Shown here one piece after another: positions 6,986-22,733 of a DNA stretch of 64,000 nucleotides. The position numbers and the translations under genes were made by a program. The stretch is from Acidimicrobiia bacterium (GTDB taxonomy: Bacteria; Actinomycetota; Acidimicrobiia; IMCC26256; PALSA-610), in contig BPGH01000001.1 in the NCBI GenBank assembly GCA_026002935.1, positions 2,219,965-2,283,964 on the forward strand. The letters are read 5' to 3'. Below the pieces are notes generated by a model that saw nothing but the letters and a program-made list of their open reading frames with translations, had not been told where the DNA came from and did not search any database. Every line of letters begins with the position of its first letter. Positions within the stretch are counted from its first letter, which is position 1.

Positions 6986-7980
6986 GCGGGGACCTGCTGG
7001 GTGATGCAGTGCACGCCGCCACCACCGTACGCGAGGACCGCACCGGGCACGGCGACGACGTCCCGTCCGGGGAAGCACGACGCGACGACTGCGAGCACGT
7101 CGTCGTCGGCGGGGTGGCCGACGGTCGGGACGAGCACCCCGCCGTTCACGACGTACAGGTTCACGTAGGGGACCGGGACCCGCCGGCCCGCCACGTCCGC
7201 GTAGGGCAGCACCGGCACCTCGACGACCTCGACGCCCGCGCCCGCCAGCCGCCGGCGGTTCTCGGCGGCGATCGCCGCGTTCGGGTTGGCCGCGTCGTCG
7301 CAGCCCTGGAGCAGGACGCGGCCCGGCGCGTGGAACGCCACGACGTTGTCGACGTGCCCGTCGGTGCCCTCGTCCTCGGCGATCCCGTCGGGGAGCCACA
7401 CCACCCGCCTCGCCCCCAGCCAGCGCCGCAGCTCCGCCTCGACCTCGGCGGGCGACCGCCCGGGGTTGCGGTTGGGGTTCAGGACGCAGCGCTCGGTGGT
7501 GACCAGGGTGCCGTCCCCGTCGACCGCGATGGCCCCGCCCTCGAGCACGAGCGGCGCCTCGTGCACGGGCAGGCCCAGCCGGCGCGCGAGCTCGGCGCCC
7601 GCGCGCGCGTCGGCGTCGAACGGCCGGAACTTCCCGCCCCACGCGTTGAAGCGGAAGTGCACCGCATGGCGCGAGCCGTCGGCCGCCACCACCACGACCG
7701 GGCCGTTGTCGCGGATCCACGCGTCGTCGATCGGCAACGCGACGACCTCGACCGCGTCGCCGCAGCGCCGCCGGGCGTCGGTGGCCTCGACGGGATCGGC
7801 GACCAGGGTCACCGGCTCGAACCGGGCGATCGTGCGGGCGATCGACGCGTAGGCGTCGCGCGCCGGCTCCAGTTGCGACCCCCAGAGCGCGTCGCGCCGG
7901 CGCGCCGTCGGCCAGGCCATGAGCGTCCGCTCGTGCACGGCCCACTCGGCCGGCATCCGCGATCCGGCGGGCGGCGTCAC
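6982..7980 (-). CDS. aguA: agmatine deiminase
   Basis: 332-aa peptidyl-arginine-deiminase-family enzyme that hydrolyses agmatine to N-carbamoylputrescine. Signature segments: the N-terminal HERTLMAWP, WIRDNGP, the metal-independent guanidine-binding EDEGTDGHVDN, and the catalytic Cys in GGGGVHCITQQVP at the C-terminus. With aguB it forms a complete agmatine-to-putrescine route. I chose the GTG at 7980 because a TACCGT -10 box lies 8 bp upstream; an internal ATG at 7956 would give 324 aa. It is divergent from the cyclase gene, and the two promoters overlap. Confidence 0.9.
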   Translation of the reverse strand: MTPPAGSRMPAEWAVHERTLMAWPTARRRDALWGSQLEPARDAYASIARTIARFEPVTLVADPVEATDARRRCGDAVEVVALPIDDAWIRDNGPVVVVAADGSRHAVHFRFNAWGGKFRPFDADARAGAELARRLGLPVHEAPLVLEGGAIAVDGDGTLVTTERCVLNPNRNPGRSPAEVEAELRRWLGARRVVWLPDGIAEDEGTDGHVDNVVAFHAPGRVLLQGCDDAANPNAAIAAENRRRLAGAGVEVVEVPVLPYADVAGRRVPVPYVNLYVVNGGVLVPTVGHPADDDVLAVVASCFPGRDVVAVPGAVLAYGGGGVHCITQQVPA

Positions 7981-7988
7981 GGGACCCG

Positions 7989-7994
7989 ACGGTA
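7989..7994 (-). promoter_or_regulatory. -10 box (TACCGT) for aguA, overlapping the divergent box
   Basis: On the minus strand this hexamer ends 8 bp before the GTG of aguA. It shares its TA with the plus-strand TAGCGT at 7993-7998. Confidence 0.55.
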
Positions 7995-7998
7995 GCGT
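7993..7998 (+). promoter_or_regulatory. -10 box (TAGCGT) for leaderless start at 8005
   Basis: It ends 6 bp before the ATG of the cyclase gene and is part of the ten-base element ACGGTAGCGT, which also serves the divergent aguA gene. Confidence 0.6.
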
Positions 7999-8004
7999 CG
8001 GGGG

Positions 8005-8937
8005 ATGCCGCTCTCCGACGACCTCCGGGCGCTCGCCGCGCGGGTGTCCAACTGGGGCCGCTGGGGTCCCGACGACCAGCGGGGCACGCTCAACCTGATC
8101 ACCCCCGACGCCGTCCGGCGCGGCGTCGCCGCGGTGCGCGACGGGCGGTGCTTCTCGCTCGCGATCCCGTTCGACGCCTCGGGCCCGCAGTGGGACACCA
8201 GGAACATGCCCGAGCGCGTGAACCCGGAGCTGCGCACGTACGCGGTGAACGTCTCGTTCACGGGTGACCCGCGCGACTTCACGACGAGCGACGACTCGTT
8301 CCGGATGGGCACCCAGGCCGCGACCCACTGGGACGCGCTGGCGCACGTCGGCTACGAGGGCCGCCTGTGGAACGACACGCCGATGGAGGTCGTGAGCGAG
8401 GCCGGCGCGCGCCGTCTCGGCGCGGAGCACCTCGGGCCCATCGTGACGCGCGGCGTGCTGCTCGACGTCGCGCGCCTCTACGGCATCGAGCACTTCGACG
8501 ACAACCACCCGATCACCGGCGACGACCTCGATCGTGCCTGCGCCGCCGCGGGCGTGCGCGTCGAGCCCGGCGACGCGGTGCTGGTACGGACGGGTCAGAT
8601 GCACTACCTGCGCGAGGGCGACCGCCGGCGCTACTCGATGCCGTCACCCGGCATCGCGACGAGCGCGATCCCGTGGCTGCGCGACCACGACGTGGCCGCG
8701 GTGGCGACGGACACGATCACCTTCGAGGTCTACCCCTGTGAGGACCCCCGGGTCTTCATGCCGGTGCACATGATCCACCTGCGCGACATGGGGCTCGTGC
8801 AGGGCCAGAACTGGGCGCTCGACGAGCTCGCCGCTGACTGCGCGGCCGACGGTCGCCACGACTTCCTGCTCGTCGCGACGCCGCTGCCACTGACCGGGGC
8901 GGTCGGCGCGCCGGTCGCGCCGACCGCGATCAAGTGA
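8005..8937 (+). CDS. cyclase-family metallohydrolase (kynurenine formamidase-like)
   Basis: 310-aa protein of the cyclase/KynB superfamily. The metal-binding core appears as THWDALAHVGYEG, matching the family HxxxDxxxH pattern; a GDAVLVRTG strand and a C-terminal region of the usual kind follow. Members hydrolyse N-formylkynurenine, isatin or polyketide intermediates. The long form (over 300 aa) with 'NWGRWGPDDQRGTLN' is common in actinobacteria and of unassigned substrate. Leaderless ATG. The divergent placement beside aguAB raises a link to amide or nitrogen scavenging, but that is only inference. Confidence 0.8.
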   Translation: MPLSDDLRALAARVSNWGRWGPDDQRGTLNLITPDAVRRGVAAVRDGRCFSLAIPFDASGPQWDTRNMPERVNPELRTYAVNVSFTGDPRDFTTSDDSFRMGTQAATHWDALAHVGYEGRLWNDTPMEVVSEAGARRLGAEHLGPIVTRGVLLDVARLYGIEHFDDNHPITGDDLDRACAAAGVRVEPGDAVLVRTGQMHYLREGDRRRYSMPSPGIATSAIPWLRDHDVAAVATDTITFEVYPCEDPRVFMPVHMIHLRDMGLVQGQNWALDELAADCAADGRHDFLLVATPLPLTGAVGAPVAPTAIK

Positions 8938-10925: not shown

Positions 10926-11477
10926 TCAGAAGAGGAAGCGCGGCCTCGCCGTCAGCTCGCGCACGAGCGGTTCGAAGTGCGCGAGGGGCAGCGTGTCGTA
11001 GTCGGGGTCGAACGCGGTCTGGTCCCACGAGTCGGCGAAGCGCGCCGCCAGGTCGAACCACGGCTCGCCCCGGTACCGCTCGCGCGCGTCGGGGTCGCCG
11101 CCGAAGTGGGCGTAGTAGTGGCGTCCCTGGAAGTCCTGGTGGGCGCGGATCGCGTGGTACACGTCGGGGCGTACGTACGGCTTGATCATCGCGGCGGCGA
11201 TCTCGGGGTGGTTCGGGACGCTCACCGCCTTTCCGACGTCGTGCATCAAGGACGCGAACACGAGCTCGGGGTCCGCGCCGTCGCGCTCGGCACGCGTCGC
11301 CGTCTGGAGCGAGTGGGTGAGCTGGTCGACCGCGAACCCGTCGGTGATGTCGGCGAGCGACCGCAGGAGCACCAGCATCCGCTCGGCCACCCGGCCCTGG
11401 TTCGCGGCCGACTCCCGGCCGATCACCGCCCACTGCTCGGCCGTCGACTCGTCCATGCGCGTGAACGTCTGCACCAT
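10926..11477 (-). CDS. HD-domain protein, possible diiron oxygenase (PhnZ/MIOX-like)
   Basis: 183-aa HD superfamily protein. Metal ligands: His55, His79-Asp80 (LMHDVGK with Lys83), His90 and His108. The single-domain architecture, HSLQTA at the first His and a Lys three residues after HD resemble the mixed-valent diiron oxygenases PhnZ/TmpB and myo-inositol oxygenase rather than classical phosphohydrolases. However, no phosphonate genes lie nearby. The ATG is 6 bp from a TAGCCT -10 box that overlaps the box of the divergent rhodanese gene. Confidence 0.65.
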   Translation of the reverse strand: MVQTFTRMDESTAEQWAVIGRESAANQGRVAERMLVLLRSLADITDGFAVDQLTHSLQTATRAERDGADPELVFASLMHDVGKAVSVPNHPEIAAAMIKPYVRPDVYHAIRAHQDFQGRHYYAHFGGDPDARERYRGEPWFDLAARFADSWDQTAFDPDYDTLPLAHFEPLVRELTARPRFLF

Positions 11478-11483
11478 GTCCCA

Positions 11484-11489
11484 AGGCTA
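11484..11489 (-). promoter_or_regulatory. -10 box (TAGCCT) for the HD gene, overlapping divergent box
   Basis: On the minus strand it ends 6 bp before the ATG at 11477. Its TA (11488-11489) is shared with TACAGT on the plus strand. Confidence 0.6.
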
Positions 11490-11493
11490 CAGT
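11488..11493 (+). promoter_or_regulatory. -10 box (TACAGT) for leaderless rhodanese gene
   Basis: It ends 6 bp before the GTG at 11500 and overlaps the divergent HD-gene box by two bases. Confidence 0.6.
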
Positions 11494-11499
11494 CCGGGT

Positions 11500-12009
11500 G
11501 TGGCGAGGGTCGACGAGCTGCTCGCGGCCGCGCGGTCCCGCCTCACGCGCCTGACGGCGAGCGAGGCCCACCGGCGGGCCGCGGCGGGCGCGCTGCTCGT
11601 CGACGTCCGCACCGGCGAGCAGCGGGCCGCCGACGGCGCGATCCCGGGCGCCCTCGTGATCGCGCTCAACCACCTCGAGTGGCGCCTCGACCCGACGAGC
11701 CCCCACCGCGTCCCCGAGGCGACGGGCCCCGACGTCGAGGTCGTCGTGTGCTGCGACGAGGGCTACTGCTCGAGCCTCGCCGCCGCGCGGCTGCAGGACC
11801 TCGGGTTGCACCGGGCGACCGACGTGATCGGCGGGTTCCGCGCGTGGGTCGCCGCGGGGCTACCCGTCGAGCCGGGCGCGCAGCAGCGCGGCGAGCTCCA
11901 GCGGCCGGTCGCCCTGGATGCTGTGGCCGGCGCCGTCGACGACCTCGACGCGGGCGGCGGGGTTGCGGCGGCGCAGTTCGGCGACGTCGGCGTCGTCGAC
12001 AACGGGTGA
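11500..12009 (+). CDS. rhodanese-like protein with antisense-encoded C-terminal tail
   Basis: 169 aa as read. Residues 1-125 form a single rhodanese domain: LLVDVRT, the active-site loop CCDEGYCSS (catalytic Cys at 84/85) and the closing helix GGFRAWVAAGLPV. These proteins carry sulfur as a persulfide. Residues 126-169 have no family counterpart and lie antisense to the last 150 bp of the convergent hydrolase gene. The stop has probably drifted, or one of the two ends is mis-sequenced. The GTG start is fixed by a -10 box 6 bp upstream. Confidence 0.75.
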   Translation: MARVDELLAAARSRLTRLTASEAHRRAAAGALLVDVRTGEQRAADGAIPGALVIALNHLEWRLDPTSPHRVPEATGPDVEVVVCCDEGYCSSLAAARLQDLGLHRATDVIGGFRAWVAAGLPVEPGAQQRGELQRPVALDAVAGAVDDLDAGGGVAAAQFGDVGVVDNG

Positions 12010-12759
12010 CAGGGCGCCGCGCACGAGCGTGAGCGGCACGGCGAGCCGGCCGATCGCGTCCCACAGCGCGTCGAGGCCGGGCAGGATCCGGCCGTCGTCG
12101 CCCTCGCCGCTGCCGCGCCGCGGCAGGTCGTAGCGCCACCGCCAGCGGCCGTCGGGGAGCTGCAGCGCGTTGTGGAGCACGCCGCGGCGCAGCGACGCGA
12201 CCGACCGGGTCGGGTTGAAGCGGACCGTCCGCTCGAGGATCTCCTCGAAGCTGTCGAAGTGCTCTGGGCCGTCGACGAACTGCGCGATCGCGGAGGCCTT
12301 CTCGCGGTCGACCCCCGGTGTCACGTCGACGAGCACGAGCTCCCGCACGAGGTCGGGGGCGCGGTCCGCGAGGGCGAGCGCGGTCAGGCCGCCGAGCGAC
12401 ATGCCGACGACGAGCTGCGCGTCGGGGGCGAGTGCGCGCACGGCGATCTCGACCGCGGCGGCGTTCTCGGCGGGCCAGTAGGCGTGGTCGTCGCGGTGGG
12501 ACGAGTGCCCGTGGCCGGGCAGGTCGATCGCGACGAGCGGGACGCGCAGTGCGAGCGCGACGGTGTCCCACGTGTGGGCGTTCTGCGCGCCCCCGTGGAG
12601 GAGGACGAGCCGCGGCGACCCGGTGTCCCAGACCAGCGCGCTCACCGTGCGGCCGTCACCCACGTCGACGTGCTCGCGGCGGACCACCGGGGGCGGGTCG
12701 TGAGGGAGGCCGAACTCCTCGGCGTTCTCGCGCAGGAGCGCGAATTCGTCGTAGTGCAC
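11860..12759 (-). CDS. alpha/beta hydrolase (Ser nucleophile)
   Basis: 299 aa. Motifs: LLHGGAQNAHTWD (oxyanion hole), VAIDLPGHGHS, the nucleophile elbow GMSLGG, a late Asp in RGALSPVVDDADV and the catalytic His in VDGAGHSIQGDRP. A typical cytoplasmic carboxylesterase or C-C hydrolase of the alpha/beta family; substrate not determinable. The GTG start is 14 bp after the stop of the CapA-like gene, so the two are likely co-transcribed. Its 3' end overlaps the rhodanese gene by 150 bp. Confidence 0.8.
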   Translation of the reverse strand: MHYDEFALLRENAEEFGLPHDPPPVVRREHVDVGDGRTVSALVWDTGSPRLVLLHGGAQNAHTWDTVALALRVPLVAIDLPGHGHSSHRDDHAYWPAENAAAVEIAVRALAPDAQLVVGMSLGGLTALALADRAPDLVRELVLVDVTPGVDREKASAIAQFVDGPEHFDSFEEILERTVRFNPTRSVASLRRGVLHNALQLPDGRWRWRYDLPRRGSGEGDDGRILPGLDALWDAIGRLAVPLTLVRGALSPVVDDADVAELRRRNPAARVEVVDGAGHSIQGDRPLELAALLRARLDG

Positions 12760-19242: not shown

Positions 19243-21129
19243 TCACGACGGCGACACCCGCAGGATCTGGTCCCGGCCGCCGCCATTGGAGGTCGTCACG
19301 TAGAGGCTGCCGTCGGGCCCCTGGACGACGCTGCGCAACCGGCCGTAGCCGGTCAGCCGGACCCACTGCGCGACGACCGCGTCGCCGCCGACGTCGAGGA
19401 CCATGATGCGCAGCTGGCTCCCCTTCAGGGCCGCGACCGCGAGCGCGCCGTTCCAGTCCCGCCACTGCGGGCCCGACAGGAAGGTGGCGCCCGCCGTCGC
19501 GATCGTCGGCGCGCCGCTGCTCCACACGGCGGGGCGGTCGCCGGGCCGGGTCATCGGGACCGACTCGTCGTAGCCGGGCACCGGGTCCCACCCGTAGTTG
19601 CCGCCCGCCACGAGCCGGTTCACCTCGTCGTCGCGGTCCGGGCCGTGCTCCACCGAGTAGGGCGTGCCGCTGCCGGGCCGGAAGGCGAGACCCTGCACGT
19701 TGCGGTGCCCGCGCGTGTACCAGCGCAGGCCGAACGGGTTCCCGGGCGCGGCGGCCCCGGTGAACCGGTCGACGCGCAGCACCTTGCCGCCGAGGCTGTG
19801 CACGTCCTGGGGGTGCGTCCCGGTCGCGGCGTCGCCGGTGCCGACCCACAGGTGGCCGTCGGGGCCGACGCGCGGCCGGCAGCCCGAGTGGCGGCCCGTC
19901 GCGCTCTGGGGGATCCCGTCGACGAGCGTGCGCACCGGGACCGCGGACGTGACGGCGGCGTCGACGACCCACGCGACGACCTCGATGTCGCCGCCGGTCG
20001 TGTTGTGGCACGTGTAGATGCGGCGGTTGCCGGCGAACGCCGGGTCGACCGCGAGGCCGAGCATCCCGCCCTCGCCGCCCGGCCGCACGTCGCCCGGCGC
20101 GGCGAGCGTCCGGACCGAGCCGCCGACGAGCGCGTGGATCCGCCCCGCCCGCTCGGTGAACACCATCACCCCGCCCGGCAGGAACCCGACGTCCCACGGG
20201 ATGTCGCGCCCCGTCACGACCGGGGTGACCGTCAGCGTGGGCACGCCGCCGGGCGGCAGCCCCGGGCCCGGGAACGTGAAGACGCCGCCGTCGCCCCCGA
20301 GCATCCAGTACCCGTCGCCGGACGGCGTGAGCGCCACGTCGACCACCGGCGCCTGCAGCGTGGCGCCGGCGATCGAGCCGTGGAAGCGCGCGCTGCCCAG
20401 CGCGTACGCGCCGCCGGCCGCGGTGACGAGCAGGAGCCCGCGTCCGTCGGGGGCGGGCTCGGCGGCGACCACCGGCGAGTCGAGCGGGCCCGGCTCGCCC
20501 ACGGCCGGGGCCGCGCCGAACGCGAACGTGCGCCCGTCGCGCAGCACGATCCAGTAGCCGTCACCCTGGGGCCGCAGCGCGAGGCCGGTCGCGGGGACGC
20601 CGCCCGTGCGGCCGGCGAGCGAGCCCGACCAGCGCGCGCCGCCGAACGCGAACACACCCCCGTCGGCGCCGAGCATCACGTAGCCGCGGCCGTCGGCCGT
20701 CGCCTCGATCGCCACGATCGGGGCGGCCAACCGCAGCCCGCCGAGCGACCCGCGGAACACCGCGTCGCCGAACGCGAACACGCCGCCGTCGCCGCCGACC
20801 ATGTAGTAGCCGCGCCCGGACGCGGTCCGCGCGCCGTCGACGATCGGCCCGTTGAGCGGGATCCCGCCGAGCGACCCGCGGAACACCGCGTCGCCGAACG
20901 CGAACACGCCACCGTCGCGCGCGAACACGTGGTAGCCGCGGCCCGTCGCGGTCGCGACGATCGTGGTGACCGGCGCGTTGAGCCGCATCCCGCCGAGCGA
21001 ACCGTGGAACGTCGGCGCGGCCGGCGCGGGTTCGGGCGTCAGACCCGTGAGCGCGATCGCGACCGCGAGCGCCGCGCACGCGCGCGCCGGCGCGGAACGG
21101 GACCGGGATCGGCGGGGGCGACGCATCAC
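19243..21129 (-). CDS. secreted fusion: six DGGVFAFGDA repeats plus PQQ-type sugar dehydrogenase
   Basis: 628 aa. Signal peptide about 1-38 (Arg-rich start, ALAVAIALTGLTP, APAAP cleavage). Residues 41-290 are six degenerate 42-residue repeats with the core GRGYxxxxxDGGVFAFGDA and xGSLGGxxLxAPI, probably a beta-propeller. From about 291 to the end is a glucose/sorbosone dehydrogenase-like domain: GGEGGMLGLAVDPAFA, LGGKVLRVDRF, RGHRNVQGLAF and GGNYGWDPVPGYDE. The pair is extracellular; the second domain likely oxidises a sugar with PQQ, and the repeats may bind a polymer. The start is GTG-ATG at 21129/21126 after GAGGAG. Confidence 0.8.
   Translation of the reverse strand: MMRRPRRSRSRSAPARACAALAVAIALTGLTPEPAPAAPTFHGSLGGMRLNAPVTTIVATATGRGYHVFARDGGVFAFGDAVFRGSLGGIPLNGPIVDGARTASGRGYYMVGGDGGVFAFGDAVFRGSLGGLRLAAPIVAIEATADGRGYVMLGADGGVFAFGGARWSGSLAGRTGGVPATGLALRPQGDGYWIVLRDGRTFAFGAAPAVGEPGPLDSPVVAAEPAPDGRGLLLVTAAGGAYALGSARFHGSIAGATLQAPVVDVALTPSGDGYWMLGGDGGVFTFPGPGLPPGGVPTLTVTPVVTGRDIPWDVGFLPGGVMVFTERAGRIHALVGGSVRTLAAPGDVRPGGEGGMLGLAVDPAFAGNRRIYTCHNTTGGDIEVVAWVVDAAVTSAVPVRTLVDGIPQSATGRHSGCRPRVGPDGHLWVGTGDAATGTHPQDVHSLGGKVLRVDRFTGAAAPGNPFGLRWYTRGHRNVQGLAFRPGSGTPYSVEHGPDRDDEVNRLVAGGNYGWDPVPGYDESVPMTRPGDRPAVWSSGAPTIATAGATFLSGPQWRDWNGALAVAALKGSQLRIMVLDVGGDAVVAQWVRLTGYGRLRSVVQGPDGSLYVTTSNGGGRDQILRVSPS
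20737..20784 (-). repeat. 48-bp direct repeat, copy A
   Basis: This copy is identical over 48 bp to 20863-20910. The two lie 126 bp (42 codons) apart inside the DGGVFAFGDA repeat region. It marks recent duplication or gene conversion of one repeat unit. Confidence 0.8.
20863..20910 (-). repeat. 48-bp direct repeat, copy B
   Basis: Second identical copy of the 48-bp element at 20737-20784. The period of 42 codons equals the protein repeat length. Confidence 0.8.
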
Positions 21130-21151
21130 GACTCCTCGGGTCCCCGCACGG

Positions 21152-21157
21152 TAGCGT
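21152..21157 (+). promoter_or_regulatory. -10 box (TAGCGT) inside bidirectional ACGGTAGCGT
   Basis: It ends 7 bp before the GTG at 21165. The reverse strand of the same ten-base element reads TACCGT at 21148-21153, facing the fusion gene that starts at 21129 with a Shine-Dalgarno sequence. Confidence 0.6.
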
Positions 21158-21164
21158 CGGCCGC

Positions 21165-22733
21165 GTGTCCGAGCCGACGCGGGCCGAGCGGGCCGGGCGT
21201 GCCGCCCGCCGGGCCCGTGGGCGCCGGGGTGTCCTCGCCGTCGTCGCCGGCGGCTGCGTCGCCCTGGGGATCGGGCTGCTCGTGGTCACGCCCGGTGAGC
21301 GCACCGCCCGCCCGGCGACCCCGGGCCCCGGCCCGCGCGTCGACGCGCCGGACGACGCCGCGACCACCGCCCCGGCGACGACCACGACACCCCTGCGCAC
21401 CGACCTCCTCGCCGACCCGGCCGGCTTCGGCCGGCCGTGGGGCACCGAGGTCGAGGGCCTCCTGACCTTCCGCGGCAACCCGACCCGCTCCTACCACGGG
21501 CGCGGCCCCGTGCCGGTCGCGCCGACGGTGCGCTGGTCGTTCCCCGAGTCGCCGATGTGCGGACCGTCGAGCGAGGGCGGCCGGACGCGCACGTGGTGCG
21601 GGATGGGCTGGACCGGCCAGCCCGCCGTGTTCGAGCGGGCCGGGCGCACCTGGCTCGTGTTCGGCGCCTACGACCACCACGTGCACTTCGTCGACGCACA
21701 CACCGGCGAGCGGATCCTGCCGGACTTCCCGACCGGCGACATCATCAAGGGATCGGTCACGGTCGACCCCGACGGCTACCCCCTCGTCTACGTCGGCTCG
21801 CGCGACGACCGCCTGCGGGTCCTGGCGATCGACCGCCCGGCCGCGACGGAGCTGTGGGCGCTCGACGCGTCGGCCGTGGGCCCCACGCTGTGGAACGACG
21901 ACTGGGACGGATCGCCGCTCGTCCTCGCGGACCACCTGATCGAGGGCGGCGAGAACAGCCGGTTCCACGTCGTTCGCCTGAACCGGGCGATCGGGCCCGA
22001 CGGGCTCGTCACCGTGGCGCCGGAGGTCGTGTTCCACGCGCCCGGATGGGACGACGAGCTGCTCGCCGACGTCGGCGACCGCAACGTGTCGATCGAGCAG
22101 TCGGTGACGGTCGCGGGGGACACCGCCTGGTTCGCCAACTCGGGCGGGCTCCTGCAGGGGTGGGACCTCTCGTCCGTCCGCACCGGCGCCGGGACGCCGT
22201 CCCGCGCCTTCCGGTTCTGGCTGGGCGACGACGCCGACGCGTCGATCGTCGCGGACGCCGACGGCTTCCTGTACGTCGGCGTCGAGTACGAACGCGCGAC
22301 GGCGCGTGCCACGCAGGTCGGCCAGCTGCTCAAGATCGACCCGCGCCGCCCGGACGACCCGGTGGTGTGGTCGGTCCCCAGCACCGGCGGCGACAAGGGC
22401 GGCACCTGGTCGACCCCGGCCGTCCTCGACGACGTCGTCATCTGGCCCACCCGGCCCGGCACCGTGTTCGGGCTCGACCGCGCCACGGGCGCGACGCTCT
22501 GGGAGGTGGAGCTGCCGGCCCCGCTGATGGGCTCGCCGGTCGTCGTCGACGACGTGTGGATCCAGGGTGACTGCGCGGGCGTGCTGCACGGCTTCGACGT
22601 GTCCGAACCCCGGGCGGCCCCCACGCGACGGTGGTCGGTCGAGCTCGGCGGCTGCATCGAGGCGACCCCGGCGGTGTGGAAGGGCCGCATCTACGTCGGC
22701 ACCCGCGCGGGCCGGCTGCACGCCCTCGGCTGA
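21165..22733 (+). CDS. membrane-anchored PQQ-like beta-propeller protein (BamB-like)
   Basis: 522 aa. Short cytoplasmic Arg-rich N-terminus, one transmembrane segment (about 23-41), a Thr/Ala-rich linker, then an extracytoplasmic propeller. Blades are seen as repeated strand patterns such as PAVFERAGRTWLVFGAYD, GSPVVVDDVWIQGDCAGVLHGFD and ATPAVWKGRIYVGTRAGRLHALG. The last ones match PQQ-repeat blades, but no quinone-binding signature is evident, so a scaffold role is as likely as dehydrogenase. It is divergent from the sugar-dehydrogenase fusion, sharing a bidirectional promoter. Leaderless GTG start. Confidence 0.75.
   Translation: MSEPTRAERAGRAARRARGRRGVLAVVAGGCVALGIGLLVVTPGERTARPATPGPGPRVDAPDDAATTAPATTTTPLRTDLLADPAGFGRPWGTEVEGLLTFRGNPTRSYHGRGPVPVAPTVRWSFPESPMCGPSSEGGRTRTWCGMGWTGQPAVFERAGRTWLVFGAYDHHVHFVDAHTGERILPDFPTGDIIKGSVTVDPDGYPLVYVGSRDDRLRVLAIDRPAATELWALDASAVGPTLWNDDWDGSPLVLADHLIEGGENSRFHVVRLNRAIGPDGLVTVAPEVVFHAPGWDDELLADVGDRNVSIEQSVTVAGDTAWFANSGGLLQGWDLSSVRTGAGTPSRAFRFWLGDDADASIVADADGFLYVGVEYERATARATQVGQLLKIDPRRPDDPVVWSVPSTGGDKGGTWSTPAVLDDVVIWPTRPGTVFGLDRATGATLWEVELPAPLMGSPVVVDDVWIQGDCAGVLHGFDVSEPRAAPTRRWSVELGGCIEATPAVWKGRIYVGTRAGRLHALG

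Follow-up and report, generated by a model that had tools for sequence, protein, structure and literature searches.

A ten-base pattern carrying two opposed -10 boxes on one TA as a probable bidirectional promoter core for divergent leaderless genes in an Acidimicrobiia bacterium

The window, a stretch of 64,000 nucleotides at positions 2219965–2283964 of contig 1 of the surveyed genome (G000), contains three copies of the ten-base pattern ANNNTANNNT, and all three sit in gaps between divergent genes (Table 1). The pattern can be read as TANNNT on both strands from one common TA, and the opposed -10 elements thus overlap on the two strands, as they do in bidirectional promoters with a shared -10 element. 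Each of the six genes flanking the three ten-mers is backed by a Pfam match, and the proposed start of the aguA-like gene is further supported by an ortholog in another genus that has a GTG at a similar distance. The rhodanese-domain ORF has a 150-nt tail-to-tail overlap with a well-scoring ORF on the minus strand (11860–12759), and one of the two ends may be misjudged.

Table 1. Genes, ten-mers and -10-type boxes at the three sites in the window.
Feature	Position	Strand	Basis and start
aguA-like gene, agmatine/peptidyl-arginine deiminase family PF04371, 332 aa	6982–7980	-	Pfam; leaderless-type GTG
Ten-mer ACGGTAGCGT, aguA/cyclase gap	7989–7998		Sequence; TA at 7993–7994
-10-type box TACCGT for aguA	7989–7994	-	Sequence; N8, then GTG at 7980
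-10-type box TAGCGT for cyclase gene	7993–7998	+	Sequence; N6, then ATG at 8005
Putative cyclase gene PF04199	8005–8937	+	Pfam; leaderless-type ATG
HD-domain gene	10926–11477	-	Pfam; TAGCCT-N6-ATG, ATG at 11477
Ten-mer AGGCTACAGT, HD/rhodanese gap	11484–11493		Sequence and offset listing; TA at 11488–11489
Rhodanese-domain gene	11500–12009	+	Pfam; TACAGT-N6-GTG, GTG at 11500
Glucose/sorbosone-dehydrogenase-domain (GSDH-type) gene	19243–21126	-	Pfam; leadered
Ten-mer ACGGTAGCGT, GSDH-type/beta-propeller gap	21148–21157		Sequence; TA at 21152–21153
PQQ-type beta-propeller gene	21165–22733	+	Pfam; leaderless-type GTG

A sequence-only reading of this DNA had described 7989–7998 as TACCGT in one direction and TAGCGT in the other, serving aguA and the cyclase gene, and had noted that the same ten bases recur at 21148–21157; both statements hold in the sequence. 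The ten-mer at 11484–11493 had been assigned to the HD and rhodanese genes, and the spacing of six nucleotides on both of its sides agrees with that assignment. At 21148–21157, the plus side is of the leaderless type (TAGCGT-N7-GTG at 21165) and the minus side is leadered, with 21 nt, including the Shine-Dalgarno sequence GAGGAG, between TACCGT and the ATG at 21126. A TANNNT box therefore stands 6–9 nt upstream of the start codon in all four genes at 7989 and 11484 and in one of the two at 21148. The same reading had proposed that both genes are leaderless in two of the three pairs, which is right by spacing, with the caveat that the N8 of aguA allows a leader of 0–2 nt.

For the survey, a 2.46 Mb stretch of the contig that holds the window was covered for the most part; the genome has 75% GC and 12.5% A, and a simple hexamer-based caller identified 2293 genes in the stretch. 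Among 698 divergent-gene starts, TANNNT peaked 6, 7, 8 and 9 nt before the start codon (54, 55, 40 and 23 starts, respectively) and was found at 0–5 starts for each of the other distances. This concentration corresponds to the spacing expected of leaderless genes. Across the 2.46 Mb, ANNNTANNNT occurs 73 times, and 25 of these copies fall in the 3% of the sequence around divergent starts. Its enrichment in divergent gaps was 11.5-fold, and three controls with swapped AT or swapped flanks reached 4.5- to 5.1-fold; TANNNTA was enriched 10.0-fold and a pattern with the A shifted by one base 9.1-fold, and these near-equal values indicate that location in gaps is not specific on its own. Within the window the pattern is not enriched as such (three matches versus 5.4 expected from shuffles). 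Given the lack of window enrichment and the non-specific gap location, motif abundance alone was dropped as evidence.

The pattern is distinguished from its controls by the ORFs on its two sides. At 12 of the 73 ten-mers (16%), an ORF of 100 codons or more starts 5–9 nt out in each direction, versus 1 of 171 sites when TA is swapped to AT and 1 of 135 when the pattern is read backwards. When the core TA was changed to AT, TT or AA, or the flanks were swapped, 0–3% of sites had such double ORFs. Counted at divergent genes in the 2.46 Mb, as the sequence-only reading had suggested, the element thus lies far above the control patterns.

Boxes were also listed without gene boundaries, as TANNNT followed after 5–10 nt by the start codon of a coding-like ORF, which yielded 283 boxes on the plus strand and 218 on the minus strand. 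In this one genome (2.46 Mb), 11 opposed leaderless-type pairs stand at offset 0, where the TA is common to both boxes; ACGGTAGCGT at 7989–7998 is one of these 11 double-leaderless sites, and the start codons of the pairs are 22–28 bp apart. The remaining 33 opposed pairs are distributed over 24 offsets between -5 and +60, with a maximum of four per offset, and the 2.46 Mb listing holds no pairs at offsets -4 to -1 or +1 to +5. Six pairs of opposed leaderless-type boxes lie 17–18 bp apart; this small secondary group may be due to chance.

The base that completes the reverse box is an A at position -4. It is present at 11 of the 18 distinct sites with a divergent gene start 5–10 nt beyond, versus 22 of 472 sites (4.7%) without one (P = 5e-10). 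None of the other positions from -1 to -8 in the leaderless-type boxes has a link to a divergent start, and position -9 has a weak one (P = 0.03). TANNNTA, the 18-bp-type geometry, was found in a single double-leaderless pair versus the 11 with the common-TA, 23-bp-type geometry. One likely cause of this rarity is the scarcity of A directly after the -7T, which occurs in 13 of 501 leaderless-type boxes versus 12.5% A genome-wide. The earlier claim of two -10-type boxes on a single TA, each correctly spaced from its start codon, is supported by these sequence statistics, namely the distance from box to start, the spike at zero offset and the dependence on the completing A, together with partial conservation of the element.

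Conservation was seen most fully in the aguA/cyclase gap, where sequences of another genus keep the A-NNN-TA-NNN-T arrangement with changed inner bases (AAGATAGCGT, AAGCTAGCGT), as well as the 6–7 nt distances and both start codons. This set (L007/L180, L008/L176, L009 and L177) apparently comprises four distinct sequences, with approximately 76% identity in the cyclase, and TAGCGT is kept upstream of the cyclase orthologs at L007–L009, L176, L177 and L180. For the HD gene, four sequences of the other genus keep the gene's own box with the outward T changed to C (TAGAAC/TAGAGC), and no divergent ORF abuts at these four loci. For 21148, a pair of orthologs from one further genus (L287) retains ANNNTA, and the outward plus-side T is absent there. 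In this small sample, the second half of the element thus tends to accompany a divergent gene that uses it and to be missing where none does. Elsewhere, the gene for the mismatch-repair endonuclease NucS (L047:7606–8991) is served by the ten-mer AGGTTACTCT, with a divergent partner that has no Pfam match, and a perfectly palindromic AGCCTAGGCT, flanked on either side by a start codon at a distance of 6 nt, lies outside the window and the surveyed stretch (G000:C1:2717980–2718007).

Counts made beyond the surveyed genome are no more than suggestive. Class-wide, the strict pattern was found 197 times versus 139 for its control outside family f21 (114 genomes), a moderate excess, and 112 versus 129 times within that family. 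With G/C-only spacers, the pattern and control counts were 12 versus 3 in 22 class genomes and 27 versus 20 in 225 other genomes of the phylum, the phylum figures for this pattern being a hand count from a table. At 12 of 30 class loci, an ORF of 80 codons or more opens on each side, a proportion that stands without a matched control.

Taken at the level of sequence, our data make it likely that ANNNTANNNT acts as the core of bidirectional sigma-70-type promoters, placed so that both mRNAs would be leaderless. The sequence-only reading, correct in its description of the bases, is very probably also correct on their meaning. In such a core, the two opposed TANNNT -10 boxes would draw their -12T and -11A from the one TA, and their respective -7T from the outer T and the outer A. 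RNA polymerase could engage the core facing either way, with only one polymerase bound at any moment, and would flip out the -11A on the strand concerned. A distance of about 6 nt between the -7T and +1 would put the predicted start sites 23 bp apart, a separation that at this 6-nt spacing coincides with a known 23-bp class. Where a start codon lies 5–10 nt beyond each box, both transcripts would begin at the codon or a few bases from it and would be leaderless, so that the whole intergenic gap would essentially be promoter. Transcription in both directions, the positions of the starts, and the orientation and mutual exclusion of the polymerases are what we infer from this arrangement.

The overlap could also be a matter of economy, the second gene having gained its promoter by a single A mutation without functional interplay between the two, and we give this account an even chance. 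It is an evolutionary explanation of the same structure and can hold together with the bidirectional-core reading. Only one extra base is required, and because a common TA costs no more than this once one box exists, part of the spike at offset 0 would be expected on grounds of economy. Where genes stand further apart, their boxes are 6–60 bp apart, and the paired genes belong mostly to functionally unrelated families, such as endonuclease III with an acetyltransferase or an AMP-binding enzyme with a methyltransferase. Full independence of the two genes is nevertheless impossible, since the TA is physically common and the polymerases must exclude each other. The offset-0 spike would appear to speak for two-way function more than for selected sharing. 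We regard it as unlikely that the Acidimicrobiia have a distinct promoter class in which selection keeps the common TA as a switch, so that two leaderless genes compete for a single polymerase site and are expressed in individual cells in a coupled manner or to the exclusion of each other.

That only one direction is real and the reverse box reflects a chance A is distinctly unlikely. An A does occur at -4 in leaderless-type boxes that lack a divergent start, but at the rate given above roughly one such A would be predicted among the 18 sites with a close divergent start, where 11 were found; chance may still apply to single sites such as 21148. The ten-mer is roughly symmetric and located between divergent genes, as would be expected of a near-palindromic operator for a dimeric regulator. 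However, its inner bases vary among sites, with A, TA and T as the only fixed elements, both start codons are 5–10 nt away, and regulators are rare as partners, with one PaaX-like protein among the eleven offset-0 pairs, and we consider an operator very improbable. It is likewise hard to credit that the start codons were assigned wrongly and that GC-rich ORFs gave rise to the pattern as an artefact. The starts are predicted and GTG is common in DNA of 75% GC, yet composition-matched swaps of the core fail to reproduce the pattern, and the protein families in the window begin near the proposed starts.

If the bidirectional-core reading is right, these loci would represent a minimal natural case in which one ten-base element sets the transcription and translation starts of two genes. 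The element would also allow bidirectional promoters to be found from sequence alone in leaderless genomes of high GC content, and the ten-mer loci would be ready test sites for polymerases sharing one -10 element.

Bacterial bidirectional promoters with shared -10 elements were reportedly described by Warman et al. in 2021 (cited in PMC12825309). A case with shared -10 elements is also available from Salmonella (PMC10268837). Start sites at shared -10 elements in E. coli lie 18, 10 or 23 bp apart, with 18 bp the commonest and 23 bp also named as common, opposing polymerases are unable to bind together at bidirectional promoters, and basal firing was too low for competition at the five promoters tested (PMC12825309). 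Leaderless genes are frequent among the Actinobacteria (PMC3160421), and TANNNT is found next to the start codon of leaderless genes in Actinobacteria and Deinococcus-Thermus (PMC3160421, PMC12340547). The genes described here have the same box and the same start-codon spacing; those two papers treat single genes, whereas ours are gene pairs, and the terms divergent and bidirectional are absent from both. Our search of the literature for overlapping promoters of divergent leaderless genes returned nothing relevant. As in the E. coli bidirectional promoters, the opposed -10 elements overlap, and the 23-bp class fits a shared -12T and -11A. Unlike in E. coli, where the 18-bp class is commonest, the 23-bp type accounts for 11 pairs here and the 18-bp type for one, and both mRNAs are predicted to be leaderless. 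The geometry is therefore known from E. coli, and the variant part is its doubly leaderless use.
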